Positions 3 through 14,671 of a stretch of DNA of 64,000 bases are shown piece by piece. The notes under the pieces are model-generated. The model saw only the letters and a program-made list of their open reading frames with translations. It had not been told where the DNA came from and did not search any database. Origin of the DNA: Cytophagales bacterium (lineage in GTDB: Bacteria > Bacteroidota > Bacteroidia > Cytophagales > Spirosomataceae); NCBI GenBank assembly GCA_013298025.1, contig JAAFJE010000001.1, positions 310,001 to 374,000 of the forward strand. The letters run 5' to 3'. Every line of letters begins with the position of its first letter. The stretch's first letter is position 1. A program made the translations under genes and the position numbers.

Positions 3-1208
3 TACCGCACGCAAGTTGATTTACAACAATTGGCTTTCAAATGCTCATGTCCTTCTTTCAAATTTCCTTGCAAACACGGTTTAGGCTTGCTACTGGCTTT
101 TGCTTCGCAAGCTACTGCTTTTGAAGCTGATGCAAGCGAACCCGATTGGGTAAAAGAATGGCTCGACAAGCGTCAAGCCAAAGCCGAAAAAGAAGAAAAA
201 AAAGCGGAACAAACACCCGAAAGCACCGAAGCCAACGAGGCAAAAGCCCAAAAAGCCAAGGAAAAACGCCAGCAACAACGCCTCAGCCAAGTAGAAACAG
301 GCATAGACGAGCTACGCTTGTGGCTCAAAGATTTGGTACGAGTAGGGCTGCTCGATTTGCCCAACAAAAATACCCGTTTTTTCGACCAAGTAATTGCCCG
401 CATGGTCGATGCTAAAGCCACAGGATTGGCCGCCAAAATACGTGCCTTGCGTGAATTGAACTATACCAACGATGCTTGGCAAACACAGGCATTGGGCATT
501 ATTGCCGAAACGTTTCTGTTGCTAGAAGCGTACCGCAATCTCGATAAGCAAAACCCTGTTTTTCAACAAAATATCAAAAATCTGATTGGTTGGAGTCAAT
601 CGTCGAAAGATTTATTACAAGACGAGCAGGCCGAAACCATACAAGATACATGGGTTGCCCTAGGGCACGAAGAAGTAGAAACCGAGGGTATTCTTACACA
701 TCGCACGTGGCTTTGGGGCTTGCAGAGCAATCGCACGGCATTGGTTTTGCATTTTGTTACGCCTTATGCCCCACCGCCAGCGTTGATTCCGATAGGTCAT
801 ATTTTTAGGGCTATATTGGCATTTTTCCCAGCCGTTGTTCCACAGCGAGCCATCATCAAGCAAAGCTTGGAAAATGTAAAAACAATCCCACAATTGCCCC
901 AAAGTTGCTCGTCTTGGGAAGAAGCCCTCCAATACCAAAGTAAGGCTACGGCACTATTGCCCTTGGTCAGCGATTTGCCCGTTGTTGTTCAACAAGTGCG
1001 GCTCATGACGCATGAGCAACAACTGTATTTATGCGACCACACGTGGCGGTACTTACGCCTGAGTGCCAGCGTAGTCCCTAAAACCTTGCATAAGATGTTT
1101 GCCCATGCAGGCAATAATCCAGTGCTATTGGCAGGAATCTTGCGACAAGACGGCTTCTTGCCTTTAGGTTATTTTGAATCGAATCGCTATATTTTTCTTG
1201 CCTCATGA
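3..1208 (+). CDS. SWIM zinc finger family protein (5' truncated by window edge)
   Basis: CxC-x(n)-CxH SWIM motif 'FKCSCPSFKFPCKHGLGLLLAF'. The frame stays open to base 3 ('YRTQVDLQQLAFKCSC'), so the ORF-track start at 30 (TTG) is probably not the real start. Confidence 0.85.
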   Translation, partial: YRTQVDLQQLAFKCSCPSFKFPCKHGLGLLLAFASQATAFEADASEPDWVKEWLDKRQAKAEKEEKKAEQTPESTEANEAKAQKAKEKRQQQRLSQVETGIDELRLWLKDLVRVGLLDLPNKNTRFFDQVIARMVDAKATGLAAKIRALRELNYTNDAWQTQALGIIAETFLLLEAYRNLDKQNPVFQQNIKNLIGWSQSSKDLLQDEQAETIQDTWVALGHEEVETEGILTHRTWLWGLQSNRTALVLHFVTPYAPPPALIPIGHIFRAILAFFPAVVPQRAIIKQSLENVKTIPQLPQSCSSWEEALQYQSKATALLPLVSDLPVVVQQVRLMTHEQQLYLCDHTWRYLRLSASVVPKTLHKMFAHAGNNPVLLAGILRQDGFLPLGYFESNRYIFLAS

Positions 1209-2788
1209 TACCACATATCCTTCGCACAGCACTTTTTGGTACTGAAAAACAAAGCCTTGACACCCAAACTTTACCGAATGCCTTGCAAGCCTCGCTTGCC
1301 CGTATTGCTACGCAAGAAGCCGAAACCGTTCTTTTGCAAGCCATTACGTTGAGTCATTTTTATGAAGAATCGGGTAGAAAGCCCCCCATTTTTGAAGGCA
1401 ACCAAAACCCCGAAATCATTGTAGAAGAACAAGCCGAAGCCCCCGAAGTATATCAACAATTGTACCCAAGCATCAAAGAGCTACCACCCTTTGCTCGCTT
1501 TGCTTGTATGTATGCTTGGCTCGATGGTTTTGTACGCCTCGGTGCTATTCCTTCGCCCGACAATACCATTACGCTTTTGAGCGATTTTACAAATTATCCG
1601 CAACACATTCAAGCCAAAATTGCTTTGTGTTTAGGCAAAAAAGGGCGAATGCTCTTGCCTTTTTATAGCGATTTTCAAGCAGAAGAAACCCAACCCGATG
1701 CCCAAATATGGGAAGAAGGAAAGCTAAAAGAACGAAGACTTGTTTTTCAAAAATTACGGCAACAAAATCCAGCAGAAGCCATTGCTTTATTAGAAAAAAC
1801 ATGGCAAACCGAAACCCTTCCTGAAAAAAAAGCTTTTCTCGAAGAAATTGCTAAAACGTTGGTTTCAAGCGATATAGCTTTTTTAGAAAATCTTTGGTTG
1901 ATGTTTGCCTTTAAAAGTCAAGAGAAAAAAGCCCACAAAGAAATCCGTTGGCTGCTCACGGGCTTACTCATGCGTTTTACCACATCAAATGTATATCAGC
2001 AATTGACAAACGAGCTAAAAACGTATGTACAAGCTGAAAAAAGCAAAGGCGTATTGGGCTGGGTGGGTAAAACCGAACTAAGCTTTGCCTTGCCCACCAG
2101 CGACGATGCCTTTTTCAATGCCCAAAGTATGGAAGAGCGTTGGGGCTTGCTTACGCCAAAAGACTACGACAACCTGCCTTCGGCACATACCTATTGGCTG
2201 AGTAATTTGTTGGAGATTATACCCATGAATTTCTGGGAAAATGTTTTACAAAAAAATACCGAAGAAGTGGTAAAATACTGGCAACAAGACCTTTATTGTC
2301 ACAGCATAGACCGAAAGAAATATCCTTTTTTGCAAAAAGCACTCATCCAAAACGCCTTACATTTTGGTAATCAGCACTTGGCATCAGTTTTATGTCAGCA
2401 AAAAGACTGGGTAAATTTTGCGTCGGTCCTACCCTTATTGTCGCAAGCCGAGCGAGAAAAGTTGATACTCCAACACAAAGTACATACCGATGCGTTTATC
2501 CTCAATACTTGTTTTGAAGGTACGCAAGAAATATGGTCGATTCATTTTTCAAAAGAAATCATCAAAGCTTGTCATGAGCTTATATTCAAAAGAAGTGGTT
2601 ATATTTCAGAAGCACTTATAGCCCTGTTATCGGCACACTTACACCCGTCGAGTATTGCATTTTTAGAGAGCCTCGACACATCCATCGGACAGCATCAGCA
2701 TTTGCGGTTGCATTGGCAACAACGCATCGTCGATACATTAGTAATGAATTCAGCAATCAGAGAAAAAATAGCAACCCTCACACAATGA
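1205..2788 (+). CDS. DUF5691 family protein
   Basis: 527 aa ORF with 4-bp ATGA overlap to the SWIM gene; position and character match DUF5691 in SWIM/MoxR/VWA operons. Confidence 0.65.
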   Translation: MIPHILRTALFGTEKQSLDTQTLPNALQASLARIATQEAETVLLQAITLSHFYEESGRKPPIFEGNQNPEIIVEEQAEAPEVYQQLYPSIKELPPFARFACMYAWLDGFVRLGAIPSPDNTITLLSDFTNYPQHIQAKIALCLGKKGRMLLPFYSDFQAEETQPDAQIWEEGKLKERRLVFQKLRQQNPAEAIALLEKTWQTETLPEKKAFLEEIAKTLVSSDIAFLENLWLMFAFKSQEKKAHKEIRWLLTGLLMRFTTSNVYQQLTNELKTYVQAEKSKGVLGWVGKTELSFALPTSDDAFFNAQSMEERWGLLTPKDYDNLPSAHTYWLSNLLEIIPMNFWENVLQKNTEEVVKYWQQDLYCHSIDRKKYPFLQKALIQNALHFGNQHLASVLCQQKDWVNFASVLPLLSQAEREKLILQHKVHTDAFILNTCFEGTQEIWSIHFSKEIIKACHELIFKRSGYISEALIALLSAHLHPSSIAFLESLDTSIGQHQHLRLHWQQRIVDTLVMNSAIREKIATLTQ

Positions 2789-3864
2789 ACCTTTTACGTC
2801 AACACGCCGAAGAGCAATTTGCTCACGAATTAGCCGAATTAAAACGCCATGATTCGGGTCATTTACCACCCAATTGGCAACTTTCGCCTCAATCTGTAGT
2901 GACCTATCTGATGGGAGGAAAATTGCGGAATGGCTTCGAGGTAAGTTCCAAATACATTGGCGACCGCCGTTTGATGGAAATAGCCGTAGCAACCCTTACC
3001 ACCGACCGAGCCTTGTTGCTCTATGGCTTGCCAGGCACAGCCAAGTCGTGGGTATCAGAGCATTTGGCGGCCGCCATTTCAGGCAATTCTACTTTATTGA
3101 TACAAGGTACGGCTGGCACAAGCGAAGAATCCATCCGCTATGGTTGGAATTACGCCCGATTATTGGCAGAAGGCCCTTCGGAAAACGCTTTGGTAGCAAC
3201 GCCTATGATGAAGGCGATGCAAACAGGTAAAATCGCTCGTATAGAAGAACTTACCCGTATTGGTTCTGATGTGCAAGACACGCTGATTACGATTTTATCG
3301 GAAAAAACCTTGCCCATTCCTGAGCTCAATAGCGAGATACAAGCAGTGAAAGGATTCAATGTAATAGCCACGGCAAACAACCGTGATAAAGGTGTAAATG
3401 AACTTTCGGGAGCCTTGAAACGTCGTTTCAATACAGTTATTTTACCCGTTCCCGACTCTATTGCCGAAGAAGTTGCCATTGTTCGTCAGCGTGTAGCAGG
3501 CTTGGCGAGTAGCCTAGAAATTCCAGCTCAAGCCCCCGCTTTACAAGAAATTCAACGCATTGTAAGAATTTTCAGAGAACTGAGAAATGGCGTAACAGAA
3601 GACGGTAAAACCCGACTCAAAACACCTAGCAGTACTTTGAGTACGGCAGAAGCCATTTCGGTTGTCAACAACGGACTCGCCCTTGCCGCCCATTTTGGCG
3701 ATGGTAAAATGAACGCCCACGACCTAGCTTCTGGTATCATCGGTGCAGTAATCAAAGACCCTGTACAAGATAGCGTTGTGTGGAAAGAATACCTAGAAAC
3801 GGTCGTAAAAACACGTGACGACTGGAAAGATATTTATAGAGCCTGTAGAGAAATATCAAGATAA
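2785..3864 (+). CDS. MoxR-type AAA+ ATPase (YehL-like)
   Basis: Walker A 'LLYGLPGTAKS', 'VIATANNRDKGVNELSGALKRRF'. Start placed at ATG 2785, overlapping the previous stop by 4 bp; the ORF-track start at 2713 is inside the upstream gene. Confidence 0.88.
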   Translation: MNLLRQHAEEQFAHELAELKRHDSGHLPPNWQLSPQSVVTYLMGGKLRNGFEVSSKYIGDRRLMEIAVATLTTDRALLLYGLPGTAKSWVSEHLAAAISGNSTLLIQGTAGTSEESIRYGWNYARLLAEGPSENALVATPMMKAMQTGKIARIEELTRIGSDVQDTLITILSEKTLPIPELNSEIQAVKGFNVIATANNRDKGVNELSGALKRRFNTVILPVPDSIAEEVAIVRQRVAGLASSLEIPAQAPALQEIQRIVRIFRELRNGVTEDGKTRLKTPSSTLSTAEAISVVNNGLALAAHFGDGKMNAHDLASGIIGAVIKDPVQDSVVWKEYLETVVKTRDDWKDIYRACREISR

Positions 3865-3939
3865 AGCTTTGATTTACAAAGCGTTTAAATAGACAAATGA
3901 TTTCACATTTAAAGTGTCTTTTTATTATTGACAAAAGTG

Positions 3940-3947
3940 TAAATTTG
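3940..3947 (+). promoter_or_regulatory. Candidate Bacteroidota -7 element TAAATTTG (TAnnTTTG) upstream of the triplicated genes
   Basis: Exact TAnnTTTG match 18 bp before the ATG at 3966, in the ~100 bp gap after the MoxR gene. Confidence 0.4.
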
Positions 3948-3965
3948 TCTAAAGAATGGTGAGTT

Positions 3966-5483
3966 ATGATACAGAAATATCCAGTAGGCATTCAAGATTT
4001 TGGTGAGATACGTACAGGTGGATATTTGTACGTGGACAAAACGGCGTTTGTCCATACGCTCGTAACGCAAGGGAAATATTACTTTCTTTCTCGTCCACGG
4101 AGATTTGGCAAGTCTTTGTTTATTAGTACTTTAGAATATTTGTTTCTGGCTAAAAAAGAACTTTTCAAAGGCTTATTCATCGAAGATAAATGGAATTGGG
4201 AACAAACTTTTCCGATAATCAGGATTTCTTTTAGTAATATCGGACACAAAGAAAAAGGGCTTTATCGGGCTATCGACGAGCAATTGGATAACCTCGCAGA
4301 GAGTTACGAAATTGTTTTGCGAGAACAGATTATCAGTGGAAAGTTTAAAGAACTCATTGAAAAACTTTCAGAAAGTCGGGGCAAAGTGGTAGTGCTAATC
4401 GACGAATACGACCGTCCCATCATTGATTATTTGGGAGAAGACACCGCCAAAGCCATTGAGAATCGGGACATCATGAAGGTATTTTATTCCATTTTGAAAG
4501 ATGCCGATCCTCATTTGAAATTGGTCTTTATTACGGGCGTTTCTAAGTTTTCGAGGGTGAGTATTTTTTCTGATTTGAATAATTTAGATGATATAACCAT
4601 TGACTATCGTTTCGCTGGTTGTTGTGGAATCACCGAACAAGAATTAGAAAATAATTTTGCAGAAGAGCTTCAAATATTTGATAAACAGGGGATTAAAGAA
4701 TGGTACAATGGTTATTCTTGGGATTTGGAAGTGAGTGTTTACAATCCATTTTCCTTGTTAAATTTCTTTACCAAAAAGAAATTTCATAACTACTGGTTCG
4801 ATACGGGCACGCCTACGTTTCTCATCAAACTCGCCAAGCAAATTCATTTATATGATTTCGAGAACAAAGAGACAAGCCTTTCTCATTTGAACTCCTACGA
4901 CCTCGAACGCTTGGAGTTGATACCGCTGATGTTCCAAACGGGTTATCTTACGTTCAAAAGTTACGATGAAGAAGGCGATATTTATACCTTGGGTTTTCCC
5001 AATAAAGAAGTCAAAAAGTCGTACTTAGAAGTGCTGTTAGATGCCGTGCGAGAATACCCCAGCGACCAAGGCATTGTATTTGTCAATGAGTTAAGGAAAA
5101 CACTTTTGGCAGGCAATATCGACAAATTGGAAAGTATTTTGAACTCCCTTTTCAAATCGTTGCCTTATGAACTTTGGCAAAAGGAGAATGAACATTTTTA
5201 TCATGCCATCATTCATTTAGCGTTCACGTTGTTAGGCGTTTATGTACAATCAGAAGTACAAACTTCCGACGGTAGAATGGACGCATTAGTACGGCTGAAG
5301 GAGTATATTTATTGCTTTGAATTTAAGTTGGATGGCTCGGCAGAGGAGGCTCTCAAGCAAATCAAGGACAAAGGTTATCTGCAACCCTTTGCCCAAGAAG
5401 GGAAGAAATTGATAGGCATAGGCATTAATTTTTCTACTGAAAAGAAGAGGGTAGAGGCATTGAAGTGGGAGGAAATAGCATAA
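3966..5483 (+). CDS. AAA-ATPase-like / PD-(D/E)XK nuclease family protein, copy 1
   Basis: 'YPVGIQDFGEIRTGGYLYVDKT', P-loop 'RPRRFGKSL', Walker B 'VVVLIDEYDRPI', C-terminal 'GRMDALVRLKEYIYCFEFKL' nuclease-type motif. Confidence 0.9.
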   Translation: MIQKYPVGIQDFGEIRTGGYLYVDKTAFVHTLVTQGKYYFLSRPRRFGKSLFISTLEYLFLAKKELFKGLFIEDKWNWEQTFPIIRISFSNIGHKEKGLYRAIDEQLDNLAESYEIVLREQIISGKFKELIEKLSESRGKVVVLIDEYDRPIIDYLGEDTAKAIENRDIMKVFYSILKDADPHLKLVFITGVSKFSRVSIFSDLNNLDDITIDYRFAGCCGITEQELENNFAEELQIFDKQGIKEWYNGYSWDLEVSVYNPFSLLNFFTKKKFHNYWFDTGTPTFLIKLAKQIHLYDFENKETSLSHLNSYDLERLELIPLMFQTGYLTFKSYDEEGDIYTLGFPNKEVKKSYLEVLLDAVREYPSDQGIVFVNELRKTLLAGNIDKLESILNSLFKSLPYELWQKENEHFYHAIIHLAFTLLGVYVQSEVQTSDGRMDALVRLKEYIYCFEFKLDGSAEEALKQIKDKGYLQPFAQEGKKLIGIGINFSTEKKRVEALKWEEIA

Positions 5484-5498
5484 AACGTAGCTAAGACA

Positions 5499-7016
5499 AT
5501 GATACAAAAATATCCAGTAGGCATTCAAGATTTCGGTGAGATACGTACAGGTGGATATTTGTACGTGGACAAAACGGCATTTGTCCATACACTCGTGACA
5601 CAAGGGAAATACTACTTTCTCTCTCGTCCACGGAGATTTGGCAAATCATTGTTTATTAGCACCTTAGAATGTTTATTTCTGGCTAAAAAAGAACTTTTCA
5701 AAGGCTTATTCATAGAAGACAAATGGAATTGGGAACAAACTTTTCCGATAATCAGGATTTCTTTTAGCAATATCGGACACAAATCGTTAGGCTTAAATGA
5801 GGCAATAGATACACATTTAGAAGAAATCGCAAAAGAGTATGGCATTGTATTTTCTGCTAAAACCATTGACCAAAAGTTCAAAGAATTAATTGTTTCTCTT
5901 TCGGCAAGTCGGGGCAAAGTGGTAGTGTTAATCGACGAATACGACCGCCCTATCATTGATTATTTGGGCGAAGACACCGCCAAAGCTATTGAGAATCGGG
6001 ATATTATGAAGATATTTTATTCGATTTTGAAAGATGCCGACCCTCATTTGAAATTGGTCTTTATCACAGGCGTTTCTAAGTTTTCGAGGGTGAGTATTTT
6101 TTCTGATTTGAATAATTTAGATGATATAACCATTGACTATCGTTTTGCTGGTTGTTGTGGAATTACTGAACAAGAATTAGAAAATAATTTCGCAGAAGAG
6201 CTTCAAGTGTTTGATAAACAAGGAATTAAAGAATGGTACAATGGTTATTCTTGGGATTTGGAAGTGAGTGTTTACAATCCATTTTCCTTGTTTAATTTTT
6301 TTACCAAAAAGAAATTTAAAAACTATTGGTTCGATACAGGCACGCCTACGTTTCTCATTAAGCTTGCCAAACAAATATATTTGTATGATTTTGAAAACAA
6401 AGAGACAAGCCTTTCGCACCTTAACTCTTACGACCTCGAACGCTTGGAATTGATACCCTTGATGTTCCAAACGGGCTATCTTACTTTCAAAAGTTACGAT
6501 GAAGAAGGTGATATTTACACTTTAGGATTTCCGAATAAAGAAGTCAAAAAATCGTACTTAGAAGTGCTGCTAGATGCCGTGCGAGAATACCCCAGCGACC
6601 AAGGCGTTGTGCTAGTTAATGAGTTAAGAAAGACACTTCTAGCTGGCAATATCGACAAGTTGGAAAGTATTCTAAACTCCCTTTTCAAATCGTTGCCGTA
6701 TGAACTTTGGCAAAAGGAGAATGAACATTTTTACCATGCGATTATTCATTTAGCGTTCACGTTATTAGGTGTTTATGTGCAATCAGAAGTACAGACCTCC
6801 GATGGCAGGATGGATGCGTTGGTGCGGATGAAGGAGTATATTTATTGCTTTGAATTTAAGCTAGACGGCTCGGCAGAGGAGGCACTAGCACAAATCAAGG
6901 ACAAAGGTTATTTGCAACCTTTTGCCCAAGAAGATAGGAAAAAGATAGCTGTGGGGATTAATTTTTCGAGTGAAAAGAAGAAGGTAGAAGCCCTGAAGTG
7001 GGAGGAAATAGCATAA
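5499..7016 (+). CDS. AAA-ATPase-like / PD-(D/E)XK nuclease family protein, copy 2
   Basis: Same 505 aa length as copy 1, very high identity, starts exactly 1533 bp after copy 1. Confidence 0.9.
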   Translation: MIQKYPVGIQDFGEIRTGGYLYVDKTAFVHTLVTQGKYYFLSRPRRFGKSLFISTLECLFLAKKELFKGLFIEDKWNWEQTFPIIRISFSNIGHKSLGLNEAIDTHLEEIAKEYGIVFSAKTIDQKFKELIVSLSASRGKVVVLIDEYDRPIIDYLGEDTAKAIENRDIMKIFYSILKDADPHLKLVFITGVSKFSRVSIFSDLNNLDDITIDYRFAGCCGITEQELENNFAEELQVFDKQGIKEWYNGYSWDLEVSVYNPFSLFNFFTKKKFKNYWFDTGTPTFLIKLAKQIYLYDFENKETSLSHLNSYDLERLELIPLMFQTGYLTFKSYDEEGDIYTLGFPNKEVKKSYLEVLLDAVREYPSDQGVVLVNELRKTLLAGNIDKLESILNSLFKSLPYELWQKENEHFYHAIIHLAFTLLGVYVQSEVQTSDGRMDALVRMKEYIYCFEFKLDGSAEEALAQIKDKGYLQPFAQEDRKKIAVGINFSSEKKKVEALKWEEIA

Positions 7017-7031
7017 AACGTAGCTAAGAAA

Positions 7032-8549
7032 ATGATACAAAAATATCCAGTAGGCATTCAAGATTTCGGTGAGATACGTACAGGTGGATATTTGTACGTG
7101 GACAAAACGGCGTTTGTTCATACACTGGTGACTCAAGGAAAGTATTACTTTCTTTCTCGTCCACGAAGATTTGGCAAGTCTTTGTTTATTAGCACTTTAG
7201 AATGTTTATTTCTGGCTAAAAAAGAACTTTTCAAAGGCTTATATATCGAAGACAAATGGAATTGGGAACAAACTTTTCCCATAATCAGAATCTCTTTTAG
7301 TAATATCGGACATAAATCGTTAGGCTTAAAAGAGGCAATAGACACCCGTTTAGACGAAATTGCAAAAGAGTATGGCATCACGTTTTCTGCTAAAACTATC
7401 GACCAAAAGTTCAAAGAATTAATTGTTTCTCTCTCCGCAAGTCGAGGCAAAGTGGTGGTATTAATCGACGAATACGACCGTCCTATCATTGATTATTTGG
7501 GTGAAGACACAGCCAAAGCTATTGAGAATCGGGATATTATGAAGATATTTTATTCGATTTTGAAAGATGCCGACCCTCATTTGAAATTGGTCTTTATCAC
7601 AGGCGTTTCTAAGTTTTCGAGGGTGAGTATTTTTTCTGATTTGAATAATTTGACCGATATAACGCTTAGTCATCACTTTTCAGCAAGTTGTGGTATTTCA
7701 GAAACTGAATTAGAAACTTATTTTCAAGAAGAATTAAAGATTTACGACAAAGAAAAAATACGAGCGTGGTACAATGGTTACTCGTGGGATTTAGCCGTGC
7801 GTGTATATAATCCTTTCTCTTTGATGCACTTTTTTAGAGAAGGTAAATTTCATAATTACTGGTTCGATACGGGCATGCCTACGTTTCTCATCAAACTCGC
7901 CAAGCAAATTCATTTATATGATTTCGAGAACAAAGAGACAAGCCTTTCGCACCTTAACTCTTACGACCTCGAACGCTTGGAGTTGATACCCTTGATGTTC
8001 CAAACGGGTTATCTTACGTTCAAAAGTTACGATGAAGAGGGCGATATTTATACCTTGGGTTTTCCCAACAAAGAAGTCAAAAAGTCATACTTAGAAGTGC
8101 TGTTAGACGCTGTGCGAGAATACCCCAGCGACCAAGGTGTGGTACTTGTAAACGAGCTACGGAAAACACTCTTGGCAGGTAATATCGACAAATTGGAAAG
8201 TATTCTAAACTCCCTTTTCAAATCGTTGCCGTATGAACTTTGGCAAAAGGAGAATGAACATTTTTACCATGCGATTATTCATTTAGCGTTCACGTTATTA
8301 GGTGTTTATGTGCAATCAGAAGTACAGACCTCCGATGGCAGGATGGATGCGTTGGTGCGGATGAAGGAGTATATTTATTGCTTTGAATTTAAGCTAGACG
8401 GCTCGGCAGAGGAGGCGTTGGCACAAATCAAGGACAAAGGCTATCTGCAACCCTTTGCCCAAGAAGGAAAGAAATTGATAGGCATAGGCATTAATTTTTC
8501 GAGTGAAAAGAAGAAAGTAGAAGCCTTGAAATGGGAATTTATTGGATAG
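7032..8549 (+). CDS. AAA-ATPase-like / PD-(D/E)XK nuclease family protein, copy 3
   Basis: 505 aa, starts exactly 1533 bp after copy 2; divergent central block. Confidence 0.9.
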   Translation: MIQKYPVGIQDFGEIRTGGYLYVDKTAFVHTLVTQGKYYFLSRPRRFGKSLFISTLECLFLAKKELFKGLYIEDKWNWEQTFPIIRISFSNIGHKSLGLKEAIDTRLDEIAKEYGITFSAKTIDQKFKELIVSLSASRGKVVVLIDEYDRPIIDYLGEDTAKAIENRDIMKIFYSILKDADPHLKLVFITGVSKFSRVSIFSDLNNLTDITLSHHFSASCGISETELETYFQEELKIYDKEKIRAWYNGYSWDLAVRVYNPFSLMHFFREGKFHNYWFDTGMPTFLIKLAKQIHLYDFENKETSLSHLNSYDLERLELIPLMFQTGYLTFKSYDEEGDIYTLGFPNKEVKKSYLEVLLDAVREYPSDQGVVLVNELRKTLLAGNIDKLESILNSLFKSLPYELWQKENEHFYHAIIHLAFTLLGVYVQSEVQTSDGRMDALVRMKEYIYCFEFKLDGSAEEALAQIKDKGYLQPFAQEGKKLIGIGINFSSEKKKVEALKWEFIG

Positions 8550-8598
8550 CTACATACATATTGATGCGAGCAATCAGGAAAGTTTTTGACAAAAATTT

Positions 8599-10809
8599 AT
8601 GCCATTACATATTTTAGGTATTCGCCATCATGGCGTGGGGTCGGCTCGATATGTAGCCGAACGCATAGAAGCATTACAACCCGATTTAATTCTGGTAGAA
8701 GGACCTCCTGAAATGACAGAGGCATTACAAGTCATTGGTCACGAGGCACTCAAACCGCCTGTTTCGGTGATGCTATATAATATTGATAATCCACAACAGG
8801 CTGTTTTTTATCCTTTTGCAACGTTTTCTCCAGAATGGGTAGCGGCTTTGTATGCCAATAAAAATCGTATTCCTCTTAGGGCAATAGACTTACCCGTCGC
8901 TATCAGTTTTCAGCAAGCTTTAGCCGAGAACGATACAACATTGTCAGCACCAGTGCGTGACCCGCTCGACTACCTCGCAGAGGTCGATGGCTTTGCTTCT
9001 GGCTCGGCTTTATGGGACCATTATTTTGAAAACCATTTTCAAATTCATACTTCTGCCGAACATTTTGAGGCCGTGATGCTTACGATGAAAACGCTACGCC
9101 AAGCAGCGATTCCTTCGCTTTTGGAAGAAGAAAATACCCTGCGAGAAGCCTATATGCGTGAGTGTATTCGCAAAGCCCAAAATGAACTTTACCAAAATAT
9201 CGTAATAGTATGTGGTGCTTGGCACGCTCCAGCGTTAGTACAAGTTGACACGACTGCCAAAGCCGATGCCAAACTGCTCAAAACTTTACCCAAAACCAAA
9301 ATTAAACCTTTAGCCACGTGGATTGCTTGGACGGCACAACGCTTGGCTTTACAGTCGGGATATGGTGCGGGCATTAGCTCGCCCGGTTGGTATGCTCATC
9401 GTTGGAAGTACCCACAAGATACCGCCATGCTATGGCTTACGCAAGTGGCTGGTTTGTTCAGAAGCAAACAAGCTGATATTTCTACGGCACACGTCATCGA
9501 AGCCTATCGCTTGGCTTGTACCCTAGCCTCGCTCAGAAATCGTCCACAACCAACGCTCAACGAACTCAACGAAGCTGTTATTTCGGTGATGTGCATGGGC
9601 GATGCTGTCCTTTTTCAATTGGTTGAACAAGCCCTTATCATAGGCAACAAACTAGGAAAAGTACCAGAAGATATACCAAAAGTACCTTTGCAAGAAGATT
9701 TTGAAAAGAAAATCAAAAGTCTTCGGCTATCTCTTACAGCCAATGCCAAACAATATGATTTAGATTTACGACAAGAAAATGATTTGAAACGAAGCGTTTT
9801 TTTACATCGTTTGGCTATGCTCTCGGTCACTTGGGGAAGAACAGTAGAGAATCGGAACAAAGGAACTTTCAAGGAATCATGGGTGCTAGAATGGTCGCCT
9901 GCCATGATATTGGAGCTTATCGACAAAGCCTATTATGGCAATACGGTACAGATTGCCGCCCAGCAAGTTATTCTCCAACAACTACAAGCAGAACAAAAAC
10001 TAGGTAATATTACGTCCTTGCTGTCGAGGGTTATTCCAGCAGAATTGTTTGAATGTATAGAAGCTTTGTTGTTGGCTATTCAAAATTTGGCAAGTGTGTC
10101 GGCCGATGTGGTCGATTTGATGGCAGCGTATCCAACTTTAGTGCAGGTGAGTCGGTATGGCAATGTACGAAAAACAGACCTGTCGATGATGCAAAAAATT
10201 GCCGACGGACTTTTCACACGCATTTCCATTGGGCTGGGCAATGCCTGTTATGGCCTCGATGAAGCCAATTCCGAACAAATGTTTCGGCATATCGTAGCCG
10301 TTAATGAAGCCGTTCGTTTAAACCAACAAGAAGAAGCACAAACACTGTGGCTCAATACCTTACAACAATTATTGGCTCGCACGGGTATTCATCCACTCAT
10401 TTTGGGCTGCACAAGCAGGCTCTTATTCGATGCCCAAATCTGGACTACCTCCGAGGCCGAACAACACTTTGCGTATGCCCTTTCTCCTGCCAATCCACCA
10501 AGCGATGTGGCTGCATGGATAGAGGGATTTTTGAAAGGAAGTGGTGCTATTTTAATTTATGACGATACACTTTGGAATTTATTATACGCTTGGGTTGCAT
10601 CGTTGTCGGAACAACATTTCACGGAGTTACTTCCTATTTTACGCAGAACTTTTTCGCAATTTGAATATGCTCAACGCAAACAAATCGGAGAAAAAGCTCG
10701 TAAAGGCTTGGTCGCTATCAGTGCTTCAACTCTTGGAGCATCGCCTGACATAGACGAGCCGAGAGCCGAGATGATTTTGCCGATACTAGAACAATTGATG
10801 GCTGTTTAA
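8599..10809 (+). CDS. DUF5682 family protein (YehM-like)
   Basis: 736 aa; N-terminal 'LHILGIRHHGVGSARYVAERIEALQPDLILVEGPPE' typical of the family. Confidence 0.8.
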   Translation: MPLHILGIRHHGVGSARYVAERIEALQPDLILVEGPPEMTEALQVIGHEALKPPVSVMLYNIDNPQQAVFYPFATFSPEWVAALYANKNRIPLRAIDLPVAISFQQALAENDTTLSAPVRDPLDYLAEVDGFASGSALWDHYFENHFQIHTSAEHFEAVMLTMKTLRQAAIPSLLEEENTLREAYMRECIRKAQNELYQNIVIVCGAWHAPALVQVDTTAKADAKLLKTLPKTKIKPLATWIAWTAQRLALQSGYGAGISSPGWYAHRWKYPQDTAMLWLTQVAGLFRSKQADISTAHVIEAYRLACTLASLRNRPQPTLNELNEAVISVMCMGDAVLFQLVEQALIIGNKLGKVPEDIPKVPLQEDFEKKIKSLRLSLTANAKQYDLDLRQENDLKRSVFLHRLAMLSVTWGRTVENRNKGTFKESWVLEWSPAMILELIDKAYYGNTVQIAAQQVILQQLQAEQKLGNITSLLSRVIPAELFECIEALLLAIQNLASVSADVVDLMAAYPTLVQVSRYGNVRKTDLSMMQKIADGLFTRISIGLGNACYGLDEANSEQMFRHIVAVNEAVRLNQQEEAQTLWLNTLQQLLARTGIHPLILGCTSRLLFDAQIWTTSEAEQHFAYALSPANPPSDVAAWIEGFLKGSGAILIYDDTLWNLLYAWVASLSEQHFTELLPILRRTFSQFEYAQRKQIGEKARKGLVAISASTLGASPDIDEPRAEMILPILEQLMAV

Positions 10810-10848
10810 AACTACATATATCGTTAAAAATGAATACCATATAAACTT

Positions 10849-12027
10849 ATGTCGAACGAACAAGAATTAAAAAAATGGCGATTGATATTGGGGGGTGACG
10901 AAGCCGACGGCACTGGATTTGTACTTTCGGAAGAAGAAAAACAACTCGACCACGCCCTTACGGTTTTGTATGATTTTGATAAAAGACAACGCTTCGACTA
11001 CAAGGCCGAAAAAGGAAAAGGCGGACGAGAAAGTTCGAGTCCTAGCGTAGCACGCTGGCTAGGAGATATTCGTAAATATTTCCCCCAAACGGTTGTGAAT
11101 GTCATGCAACAAGATGCCCTCAAACATCCTGATTTGCAGCGTAAAATGATGCTAGAACCAGAAATTTTAGCCCAAACAACCCCAGATGTGCATTTGGTGG
11201 CAACCCTCATGGAACTTGGTAAACTGATTCCGAGCAAGACCAAAGAAACGGCTCGAAAAGTAGTGAGCCAAGTAGTAGATGAACTCATGCAAAAACTCGA
11301 ACAACGCACCATTGCAGCCCTCAAAGGAGCATTGAATCGTTCGACAAGAAGCCGTAATCCTCGCTACAATGAAATAGATTGGCACACGACTATTCGTAAA
11401 AACCTCAAACATTATCAACCTGATTATAAAACGATTATCCCTGAATTACGCATTGGTTACGGAAGAAAAGCCAAGCGAACGTTGAAAGATGTTGTGCTGT
11501 GTATCGACCAAAGTGGCTCTATGGGCACATCGGTGGTGTATTCGGGTATTTTTGGGGCGGTGATGGCTTCTTTGCCGCAAGTAAAAACCCGTATGGTGGT
11601 GTTCGACACGCAGGTATCTGACCTCACCGAAATGCTACAAGACCCCGTAGATTTGCTGTTTGGTGTACAGTTGGGCGGTGGTACCGACATCAACCTCGCC
11701 TTGAACTATTGTCAGGGCATTATCAACAAGCCCAACGATACTATTTTGGTATTGATTACCGATTTATACGAAGGCGGCAACCTCGAACAAATGAAACGAC
11801 GCACCTTAGAAATTGTAGCCTCTGGCGTACAGATGATTTGTTTGCTTGCCCTCAACGACGAAGGTAGCCCGTCGTATGAACGAAATTTGGCAAAATTCAT
11901 GGCCGAAAATGGCGTACCAGTATTTGCTTGTACCCCCGACGTTTTTCCCGATTTGATGGCGGCGGCTATTCAAAAACAAGATATTACACAATGGGCTGCC
12001 AGCAATGAAATTGTACTCAAAAGTTAA
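10849..12027 (+). CDS. VWA domain-containing protein (YehP-like)
   Basis: MIDAS-type 'VVLCIDQSGSMGTSVVYSGIFGAV' and 'GGGTDINLAL'. Confidence 0.88.
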   Translation: MSNEQELKKWRLILGGDEADGTGFVLSEEEKQLDHALTVLYDFDKRQRFDYKAEKGKGGRESSSPSVARWLGDIRKYFPQTVVNVMQQDALKHPDLQRKMMLEPEILAQTTPDVHLVATLMELGKLIPSKTKETARKVVSQVVDELMQKLEQRTIAALKGALNRSTRSRNPRYNEIDWHTTIRKNLKHYQPDYKTIIPELRIGYGRKAKRTLKDVVLCIDQSGSMGTSVVYSGIFGAVMASLPQVKTRMVVFDTQVSDLTEMLQDPVDLLFGVQLGGGTDINLALNYCQGIINKPNDTILVLITDLYEGGNLEQMKRRTLEIVASGVQMICLLALNDEGSPSYERNLAKFMAENGVPVFACTPDVFPDLMAAAIQKQDITQWAASNEIVLKS

Positions 12028-12236
12028 ATAAAATACCGATGGATAGAAAAACAATCCTAAATTTAATACATCCATCATTTACCATAAATCCCTTAAAAAC
12101 AAACACTTAAAACAGAAAACGCCATTCTTCAACGTACTTTCTTACTTCGTTCTTGACTTTGGGCTAAAAAAGTTGTTTCTTGCTAAAAACACCATTTTTA
12201 GCAAACACAAAACTTTTCTCCCCATACGCATCAACA

Positions 12237-13670
12237 ATGGAAAAATCTATAAAAGTTTCGACAGAAGTAGGCAGACTGAAACGACTACTCATTCATAGTC
12301 CCGACAGCGGTTTAGGTAAAGTAGTGCCTTCTAAGGCCCAAGATTGGCTTTTTGAAGACATCATTCACCTCGACACCATGCGTAAGCATGAGTATGATTA
12401 TTATGTAAAAACCTTGCTGTATTTTCTCGACCCTGCTAAAATCAAAGGTCGATTGGCAGCCATTGATGCCGACGAGGCACGTAATTTTTTCAAGCCAGAA
12501 CATCCCGATTACTTTCATTCCGATAAAGTAATAGAAGTACAAAAATTATTATCTGATGTACTTTCCGACCGCAGTACTTGCACCCGATTGGTAGCAGCCG
12601 TATGTGCCATAGAGCATTGTTCCTTTACAACCCAAACCGAATTACTGCAATATCCTGCCAGCGAATTGGCGAAAATTTTGATTTCGGGCATGACACCCGA
12701 AAAGCAAATGCTCTTCGCTCCTATTCCCAACTTTATTTTTACCAGAGACATTGGTATTACCATCAACGAACATTTGTTGCTCAACAAACCAGCCAAAAAT
12801 GCCCGTTCGAGAGAGGCTTTGCTGATGCAATACATTGTTTTTTACCATGCTATGTTTGCTGAAATTCGGAATAATATTATCGAAATTCCAGAAAATGAAC
12901 ATCATTTTTTGATGCCCGAAGAACAAAAAAATGGCAATGCCGCAACGCTAGAAGGAGGCGACGTAATGATGGTTGCCCCCAATCATTTGCTCATTGGTAT
13001 TTCGGAAAGAACAACGGTGTATGCTGCCAAACAAGTGATTCAGTTGCTTTTTGAAAAAGCAGTTTTAGATAAAGTCACCTTGGTAAAAATTCCGAAAAAG
13101 CGAGATTATATGCACATTGATACCGTTTTTACGCAGGTCAAACGCAATATGTGGGTGCTGTTGGGGTCTTTAGGTAAAAAAGCCAAACAAGAAGATGAAA
13201 CCTACATCAAACTTGGCTTGATTAAACCCAAAGCTTCAGAAGAATTAAAGATTATTCAGTTTAGAAGAAATGAAAAAGAACCCAAAACAATCGCTTATTT
13301 AGAAGATTTGCTCACCGAAATTTCGGTAAAAGACTTGGGCTGTAACCCCGCCGAAGTGCAATTTGTGTATTCGGGCAACAACGAATTTCCGTATGGCGAC
13401 CGTGAACAATGGACTGACTCTTGCAATTTGTTGGCTTTGAAAGAAGGCGTAGTCATTGGCTACGACCGCAACGACAAAACCTTAGAGGCATTCAAAGCAT
13501 TGGGGTTTGAGGCTATCAAAACGGCTGATTTATTGCAAGATTTTGAAAGTGGTAAACGTTCGCCCGATACCATCGAAAATACCTTTATTTTGTTGCCTTC
13601 CGCCGAATTATCAAGGGCCAGGGGTGGCTCACATTGTATGTCGATGCCCTTGTTAAGAAGCGACTTTTAA
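12237..13670 (+). CDS. Arginine deiminase-like (guanidino-group modifying) family protein
   Basis: 'EVGRLKRLLIHSPD', 'TLEGGDVMM', C-terminal Cys motif 'ARGGSHCMSMPL'. Start taken at ATG 12237. Confidence 0.8.
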   Translation: MEKSIKVSTEVGRLKRLLIHSPDSGLGKVVPSKAQDWLFEDIIHLDTMRKHEYDYYVKTLLYFLDPAKIKGRLAAIDADEARNFFKPEHPDYFHSDKVIEVQKLLSDVLSDRSTCTRLVAAVCAIEHCSFTTQTELLQYPASELAKILISGMTPEKQMLFAPIPNFIFTRDIGITINEHLLLNKPAKNARSREALLMQYIVFYHAMFAEIRNNIIEIPENEHHFLMPEEQKNGNAATLEGGDVMMVAPNHLLIGISERTTVYAAKQVIQLLFEKAVLDKVTLVKIPKKRDYMHIDTVFTQVKRNMWVLLGSLGKKAKQEDETYIKLGLIKPKASEELKIIQFRRNEKEPKTIAYLEDLLTEISVKDLGCNPAEVQFVYSGNNEFPYGDREQWTDSCNLLALKEGVVIGYDRNDKTLEAFKALGFEAIKTADLLQDFESGKRSPDTIENTFILLPSAELSRARGGSHCMSMPLLRSDF

Positions 13671-13741
13671 GCCATTAAAAAACTCATAATAAGCATTTTA
13701 CAAAAAACTTATTGTACTTCATTTTCAACAACTATTGTACT

Positions 13742-14671
13742 ATGCGTTCTCAAACAACGGCTCATATACTGATGATTCGCCCTGTTCGTTTTGGATTCAA
13801 CGAGCAAACGGCTACGTCTAATGCTTTTCAAAACATAAGTTTTGGCGAAGCTACCCAAGCAAATGCCCAAACAGAAGCTTTGCAAGAATTTGACCAGATG
13901 ACGCAACACCTCAAAAGATTGGGCGTTGACGTAATTGTGATAGACGATACCCCCGAACCGCATACGCCCGATGCTATTTTTCCAAACAATTGGGTTTCTT
14001 TCCATAACAATGGTACTGTGATTACGTATCCGATGCAGGCCGAAAATCGTCGTTTGGAAAGACGAGAAGACATTATTACTACATTAGAAAAACAATTCTA
14101 TATCAATCGTCGGGTCGATTTGTCTGGGTTTGAAGCCCAAGAAGCATTTTTGGAAGGCACAGGCTCGATGGTGTTGGACAGAAAGCATAAAATTGCCTAT
14201 GCGTGCTTGTCGCCTCGCACGCACGCCTCCGTACTCAAAGCCTTTTCGATACAAATGAACTACGATATTGTATCGTTTACGGCCGTTGATGCCCAACAAC
14301 GACAAATTTACCATACCAATGTATTGATGTGTGTAGGCGATATGTTTGCGGTAATATGCCTAGAAGCGATACCCGACCTCGACGAGCGTATCATGGTACG
14401 CAATACTTTAGAACAAACAGGCAAGCAAATTGTGGAAATCAGTTTGGCACAAATGAACCAATTTGCTGGCAATATGCTAGAAATCAAAAACTTGCAAGGC
14501 GACAAGCTATTAATCATGTCTGATGCCGCTTATTACTCGCTCACGCCTGAGCAAATCGGTACGCTGGGTGATTATTGCAGTATTCATCATTTCGACCTAA
14601 GCATGATTGAGGGCAATGGCGGCGGCTCGGCTCGATGTATGATGGCAGAAATACATTTACCAGTACGCTAA
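13742..14671 (+). CDS. ctlX: Citrulline utilization hydrolase CtlX-like / arginine deiminase-related protein
   Basis: 'HILMIRPVRFGFNEQTA', 'DAIFPNNWVSFH', 'GGGSARCMMAEIHLP'. Confidence 0.78.
   Translation: MRSQTTAHILMIRPVRFGFNEQTATSNAFQNISFGEATQANAQTEALQEFDQMTQHLKRLGVDVIVIDDTPEPHTPDAIFPNNWVSFHNNGTVITYPMQAENRRLERREDIITTLEKQFYINRRVDLSGFEAQEAFLEGTGSMVLDRKHKIAYACLSPRTHASVLKAFSIQMNYDIVSFTAVDAQQRQIYHTNVLMCVGDMFAVICLEAIPDLDERIMVRNTLEQTGKQIVEISLAQMNQFAGNMLEIKNLQGDKLLIMSDAAYYSLTPEQIGTLGDYCSIHHFDLSMIEGNGGGSARCMMAEIHLPVR

Follow-up and report, generated by a model that had tools for sequence, protein, structure and literature searches.

Three tandem genes in the window, by which we mean the whole 64,000-nucleotide stretch of DNA that was analysed, belong to a family of predicted nucleases whose paralogs almost certainly exchange segments by homologous recombination of a gene-conversion-like kind, also between loci. 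On the reading we prefer, to which we assign a probability of roughly 0.52, conversion would keep the motor and the nuclease of these proteins and reassort their recognition modules.

The three open reading frames measure 1518 bp each (505 aa) and, as the original prediction had it, their starts lie exactly 1533 bp apart and the 15-bp spacers between them are near-identical (AACGTAGCTAAGACA and AACGTAGCTAAGAAA, one base different). The array and its flanks comprise the following features, with the basis of the assignment in brackets:

2788..3864, + strand: MoxR-type AAA_5 ATPase gene, left flank of the array (profile match)
3966..5483, + strand: copy 1, module type a-x-A, AAA-ATPase_like + PDDEXK_9, 505 aa (ORF, profile match, alignment)
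3999..4076, + strand: VB1 of copy 1 (aa 12-37), type a, E14/K37 (alignment)
4005-4007 and 4074-4076, + strand: residues 14 and 37 of copy 1 (alignment)
4092..4115, + strand: variant Walker A RPRRFGKS of copy 1, at the same offset in copies 2 and 3 (alignment)
4248..4373, + strand: VB2 of copy 1 (aa 95-136), allele x (sliding-window identity, structure model)
4578..4811, + strand: VB3 of copy 1 (aa 205-282), allele A (sliding-window identity)
5274..5327, + strand: PD-(D/E)XK core of copy 1, GRMD...EFK (profile match, motif check)
5484..5498, + strand: 15-bp spacer between copies 1 and 2 (sequence)
5499..7016, + strand: copy 2, module type a-y-A (ORF, profile match, alignment)
5781..5906, + strand: VB2 of copy 2, allele y (sliding-window identity)
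6111..6344, + strand: VB3 of copy 2, allele A (sliding-window identity)
7017..7031, + strand: 15-bp spacer between copies 2 and 3 (sequence)
7032..8549, + strand: copy 3, module type a-y-B (ORF, profile match, alignment)
7314..7439, + strand: VB2 of copy 3, allele y (sliding-window identity)
7644..7877, + strand: VB3 of copy 3, allele B (sliding-window identity)
8599..10809, + strand: DUF5682 gene, right flank of the array (profile match)

The MoxR and DUF5682 genes adjoin in three congeners and in another genus (~0-90 bp apart, the empty site), which means that the array was inserted into an operon. The apparent operon spans window positions 30-12027 with SWIM-domain, DUF5691, MoxR AAA_5, DUF5682 and VWA_CoxE genes, interrupted by the nuclease array; next to it, at 12180-14671, two adjacent ORFs appear by eye to be relatives of arginine deiminase or amidinotransferase. 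No target-site duplication or common flank was seen by eye at the five loci of the genome that carry the family. The immediate neighbours of homologs are mostly diverse housekeeping genes, and ~3 of 103 (raw count) match defence models, on which ground a defence-island location was rejected. We likewise discarded the idea that insertion always takes place behind a co-directional gene, as co-directional neighbours occur upstream in 42 of 66 and downstream in 36 of 71 cases, with no clear bias.

Profile searches place the same two domains in all three proteins, PF09820 (AAA-ATPase_like) at aa 6-201 with 213-215 bits against a gathering score of 26.1, and PF08011 (PDDEXK_9) at aa 407-496 with 70-73 bits against a gathering score of 25.5. 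This architecture has been named DUF1703 (PMC1913061), and judged by their sequence the array proteins are of this type, predicted ATP-dependent PD-(D/E)XK nucleases. The published definition of DUF1703 features the same RPRRFGKS variant of Walker A, DEYD Walker B and PD-(D/E)XK motifs and the same four-domain layout, and the accessible text of that paper does not mention within-genome variation (Knizewski et al., 2007; PMC1913061). RPRRFGKS, DEYD and the D..ExK nuclease motif with the Q that follows it are present in 10 of 10 copies of the genome, and the catalytic residues are practically invariant across 138 proteins. The array proteins matched no NCBIfam or PADLOC model (PADLOC cut-off E <= 1e-3), and sequence search returned no credible solved homolog.

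Pairwise nucleotide identity in sliding windows, the check put forward with the original prediction, excludes uniform divergence of the three copies. At aa 95-136 copy 1 stands apart from copies 2 and 3, with 51-58% identity against 90-97% in most flanking windows, and at aa 205-282 it is copy 3 that differs from copies 1 and 2 (60-70%); both blocks had been anticipated, as had the C-terminal GKKLIGIGINFS, which is found in copies 1 and 3 and absent from copy 2. The description of the copies as almost identical is accurate for the proteins but not for the nucleotides, where overall identities are 87.9, 84.6 and 88.2%. Similarly, the term triplication is apt for three tandem copies at 1533-bp spacing, but the event is not recent, because the conserved parts show differences at a third or more of their silent sites (0.33-0.52 synonymous differences per site, mean over the eight close copies of the genome).

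Altogether the genome holds ten family copies in five loci, seven of them outside the window array: besides the triple in the window there is a pair 110 kb off on the same contig (L002), a pair (L003) and a single gene (L004) on contig C23, and a diverged pair on contig C50. The modules were set from the eight close copies as VB1 (aa 12-37, alleles a/b), VB2 (95-136, x/y) and VB3 (205-282, A/B/C); VB1 is not detectable from the window alone, where all three copies have one allele. By alignment, window copies 1, 2 and 3 are axA, ayA and ayB, the L002 genes byC (first) and bxA (second), the L003 genes bxC and bxB, and L004 is axB, which makes eight different VB1/VB2/VB3 combinations in eight copies. 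As evidence of selection this distinctness was rejected (P = 0.18 under free assortment); it shows mixing, not repeat avoidance. In the C50 pair, nucleotide identity is 98% apart from VB1 (b vs a) and the last residues, and an identical tract extends over more than 700 nt. In the tandem pair at L005:1501-4591, a natural module-swap pair, the second half is practically identical in nucleotides and VB1 is different. All family copies of the genome are complete and in frame in the alignment, and a search of the genome for silent or partial cassettes found none, only chance-like matches of 21-36 nt.

The gene conversion proposed in the original prediction is backed by the PHI test, match runs, AU tests and single-module replacements in near-identical paralogs elsewhere. 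PHI was 0.339 versus 0.589 +/- 0.006 in 1000 permutations (z = -41; 305 biallelic informative sites), and the longest match run exceeded all 2000 permutations in 16 of 28 pairs of close copies. The longest run overall, 391 identical nt at nt 546-936, is shared by copy 1 and the second L002 gene, 110 kb apart, and spans VB3, where the neighbours copy 1 and copy 3 are only ~60-75% identical. In AU tests with seven segment trees, the VB1, VB2 and VB3 data each reject the topologies of all other segments; for the conserved segments, the core2 topology alone is not rejected by the core1 data, and the remaining comparisons are rejected. Different alleles are separated by dN of 0.27-0.57 and dS from ~1.9 to saturation, and copies of the same allele by dN <= 0.05 and dS of 0.19-0.33; dN is ~0.006-0.029 and dS 0.45-1.06 in the conserved parts, and the last 35 aa have a dN of 0.09.

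When paralogs are compared within each of 14 other genomes, their divergent segments lie at VB1, VB2, VB3 and VB4, a fourth variable region (~287-390) defined in these genomes, with almost none in between. Module replacement between near-identical paralogs was found in at least 7 other genomes, including two near-complete assemblies (G152 with 2 contigs, G802 with 3). In young duplicates whose backbones are 97-99% identical, one or several tracts have been replaced, mainly over VB1 (L155, L153/L159, L168), VB2 (L155, L098, L162, L120) or VB4 (L235, and together with part of the nuclease L181/L182). L181 and L182, ~15.6 kb apart in a 2-contig genome, are 100% identical over their first 900 nt (aa 1-300) and differ at ~310-475, a replacement that takes in VB4 and the greater part of the nuclease domain, and in L235, from a 3-contig genome, the difference is limited to ~261-395. 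At least 90% of a module predefined from the window's genome was covered by 6 of 10 tracts versus 2.1 by random placement, with a P of 0.003 that is indicative, the ten tracts having been hand-picked by the analyst. At the nucleotide level, replaced tracts in these recent duplicates often overrun the module edge and continue in conserved sequence, so that the edges are not exact crossover sites; a first segmentation, with tracts confined to the modules, was dropped when a more sensitive setting showed them entering conserved parts. The swapped block matches another paralog of its own genome at 84-100% in G110, G104, G027 and JAAFJN, and a comparison with its own paralogs found no donor for that of JAHDHB. 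One homolog, L239 in genome G727, is a decayed copy with three internal stops (TGA, TAG, TAA).

A comparison with 100 proteins from other genomes bears on the age of the alleles. VB1-b, VB2-y and VB3-C are nearest to L045, from a Spirosomataceae MAG and itself of type b,y,C, and VB1-a, VB2-x and VB3-B are nearest to L018 (same genus) or L017 (another genus of the same family), both a,x,B; VB3-A has no close match in this set. With axB and byC shared across genera, the alleles are, on sequence comparison, older than the genus, and because they match L017/L018 and L045, two or more old haplotypes (axB, byC) have been mixed in the recombinants. Both haplotypes are still present in the genome, as L004 and the first L002 gene.

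VB1 contains a linked residue pair. E14 with K37 occurs 58 times and K14 with a residue other than K37 42 times, with 3 discordant proteins; 54 further proteins contributed 12 E14/K37, 17 K14/not-K37 and no discordant case, and overall the two-state linkage holds in 129 of 132 proteins. Among the further 54, K14 is mostly paired with Q37 or N37, and there is a third pairing of T14 with R37 or K37; both the K/Q and the T/R pairing are seen in a further genus. On the core tree, which is itself affected by recombination, the VB1 type changes 32 times versus 32.2 +/- 2.6 times with shuffled labels and thus has no phylogenetic signal, and column 14 has the top relative rate among all two-state columns. 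Scanning all columns against the VB1 type revealed no strong partner column outside the module. A direct contact between residues 14 and 37, for example a salt bridge, would account for the linkage but not, alone, for the frequent flips.

AlphaFold2 models of copies 1 and 3 have high confidence (pLDDT 88.7 and 87.9, pTM 0.85 and 0.84); in them both allele types have the same predicted fold and the secondary structure of the modules is nearly the same. VB2 is modelled as helices, preceded by strand 84-88 and followed by the Walker B strand 141-146; VB3 comes after sensor 1 and takes in the helical lid, and helix 318-324 and hairpin 329-343, which may be winged-helix-like, fall within VB4. The nearest structural neighbours, at low similarity, are archaeal ATPase_2 (PF01637) and Orc1/Cdc6 AAA+ proteins, the best PDB entries being Orc1/Cdc6 proteins and the archaeal ATPase 2qen (2v1u, 2qen, 2qby; Foldseek E 2e-4, TM only ~0.25-0.35). 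Orc1/Cdc6 proteins are not known to have a nuclease domain, unlike the array proteins. In archaeal Orc1-type proteins the AAA+ domain is described as joined by an initiator-specific motif and a winged helix (PMC9738581), and we would guess that VB2 and VB4 correspond to these two elements.

Copy-to-copy exchange has reassorted a small stock of old VB1, VB2 and VB3 alleles (in other genomes VB4 too) and has left the catalytic framework alike. Homologous gene conversion is the probable route because tract ends vary in conserved sequence and strong inverted repeats and silent cassettes were not found, and crossovers would fall in conserved motifs since these supply identical anchor sequence. The modules would carry the working difference between copies, most likely recognition of a target nucleic acid or a partner, so that few alleles could yield many specificities with ATP motor and nuclease constant, and old alleles would persist because diversity is selected. 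That the modules are such recognition elements we consider an even bet; their coincidence with regions that are variable across the family anyway, the mainly housekeeping neighbourhood, the weak structural link to DNA-binding initiators and the tracts that overrun the modules all count against our reading. As a first guess, the target could be mobile-element or phage nucleic acid. A bolder version, in which old cross-genus alleles build a combinatorial nuclease repertoire and the VB1 pair acts as a binary assembly code against mixed oligomers of co-resident paralogs, is doubtful.

The coincidence of the modules with the family's variable regions would be expected under the main rival explanation, in which similar paralogs convert passively, diverged islands resist and move only inside a spanning tract, and the blocks merely tolerate change and do not determine specificity. 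Variable tract ends fit this as well, as do tracts in conserved parts (copies 2/3, W2/W3, run nt 1183-1404). The enrichment of young-duplicate tracts over predefined modules (again with its indicative P = 0.003), the allele classes common to several genera, and the repeated switching of VB1 between its two fixed, linked states with no phylogenetic signal speak against passive survival of the islands, and we regard it as a serious but less probable account.

The distribution of the family could suggest that the mosaics recombined elsewhere and arrived separately by horizontal transfer. A sample of 243 genomes from the order contained 48 with the domain, often in multiple copies, and most relatives of the window's genome are without it; matches include 71 records of plasmids as well as 33 faecal 'Bacteriophage sp.' records that carry no annotation, and, as described, alleles match those of other genera. 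However, the long identical tracts between non-allelic copies of the genome (391 nt; over 700 nt in the C50 pair) and the shared 15-bp tandem spacers demand recent exchange or duplication inside the genome, which leaves separate arrival an unlikely source of the mosaics. Chimeric joining of repeated genes comes to mind for a draft genome of 53 contigs (5.4 Mb) with nearly identical repeats of up to ~0.9 kb; but the array sits inside a 443-kb contig, its copies differ along their whole length, and an assembly artefact is very improbable because the same module replacements occur in the near-complete G152 and G802, and the pattern is also seen within contigs of 7.5 Mb and 2.2 Mb from other genomes. 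Least probable of all is a site-specific system in which a recombinase draws on silent cassettes, be it for cassette switching or for phase variation, the strict sense of the originally predicted cassette shuffling, since the block-wise alleles resemble hsdS shufflons in outline but the block edges have no strong inverted repeats, partial cassettes are lacking, tract ends vary and every copy is complete and in frame.

Target-recognition-domain shuffling of hsdS in Type I restriction resembles the array in its constant enzyme, exchangeable modules and recombining duplicates (PMC7394358). The array differs in that its modules lie within the ATPase-nuclease, there is no methyltransferase among the neighbours, and we found near it neither hsdM/hsdR partners nor strong inverted repeats, the marks of Type I specificity shuffling. 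The general phenomenon, recombination among DUF1703 paralogs, is already known: in the DUF1703 expansion of Cardinium cCpun and a midge Rickettsia, intragenic recombination was detected by RDP4 and PHI (Siozios et al., 2019; PMC6387759). These proteins are like the array in being AAA-ATPase_like + PDDEXK_9, multi-copy and recombining, but they belong to endosymbionts, have a mean amino acid identity of 39% and in part carry predicted signal peptides (PMC6387759), whereas the window's genome is of 5.4-Mb Bacteroidota type with tandem arrays and few old alleles at defined modules. The family described here further stands out by a module map that recurs across genomes and by the VB1 two-state pair; the main text of PMC6387759, as far as accessible, contains no module map, and we found no earlier account of the map, its cross-genome recurrence or the VB1 pair in the open-access literature.

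DUF1703 is widespread and multi-copy, and the module map makes its function directly testable with near-identical natural pairs. The C50 pair for VB1, L098 and L120 for VB2, and L235 for VB4 each offer a one-module comparison of substrate, partner or phenotype. If the modules set specificity, the family would constitute a combinatorial nuclease repertoire maintained by gene conversion.
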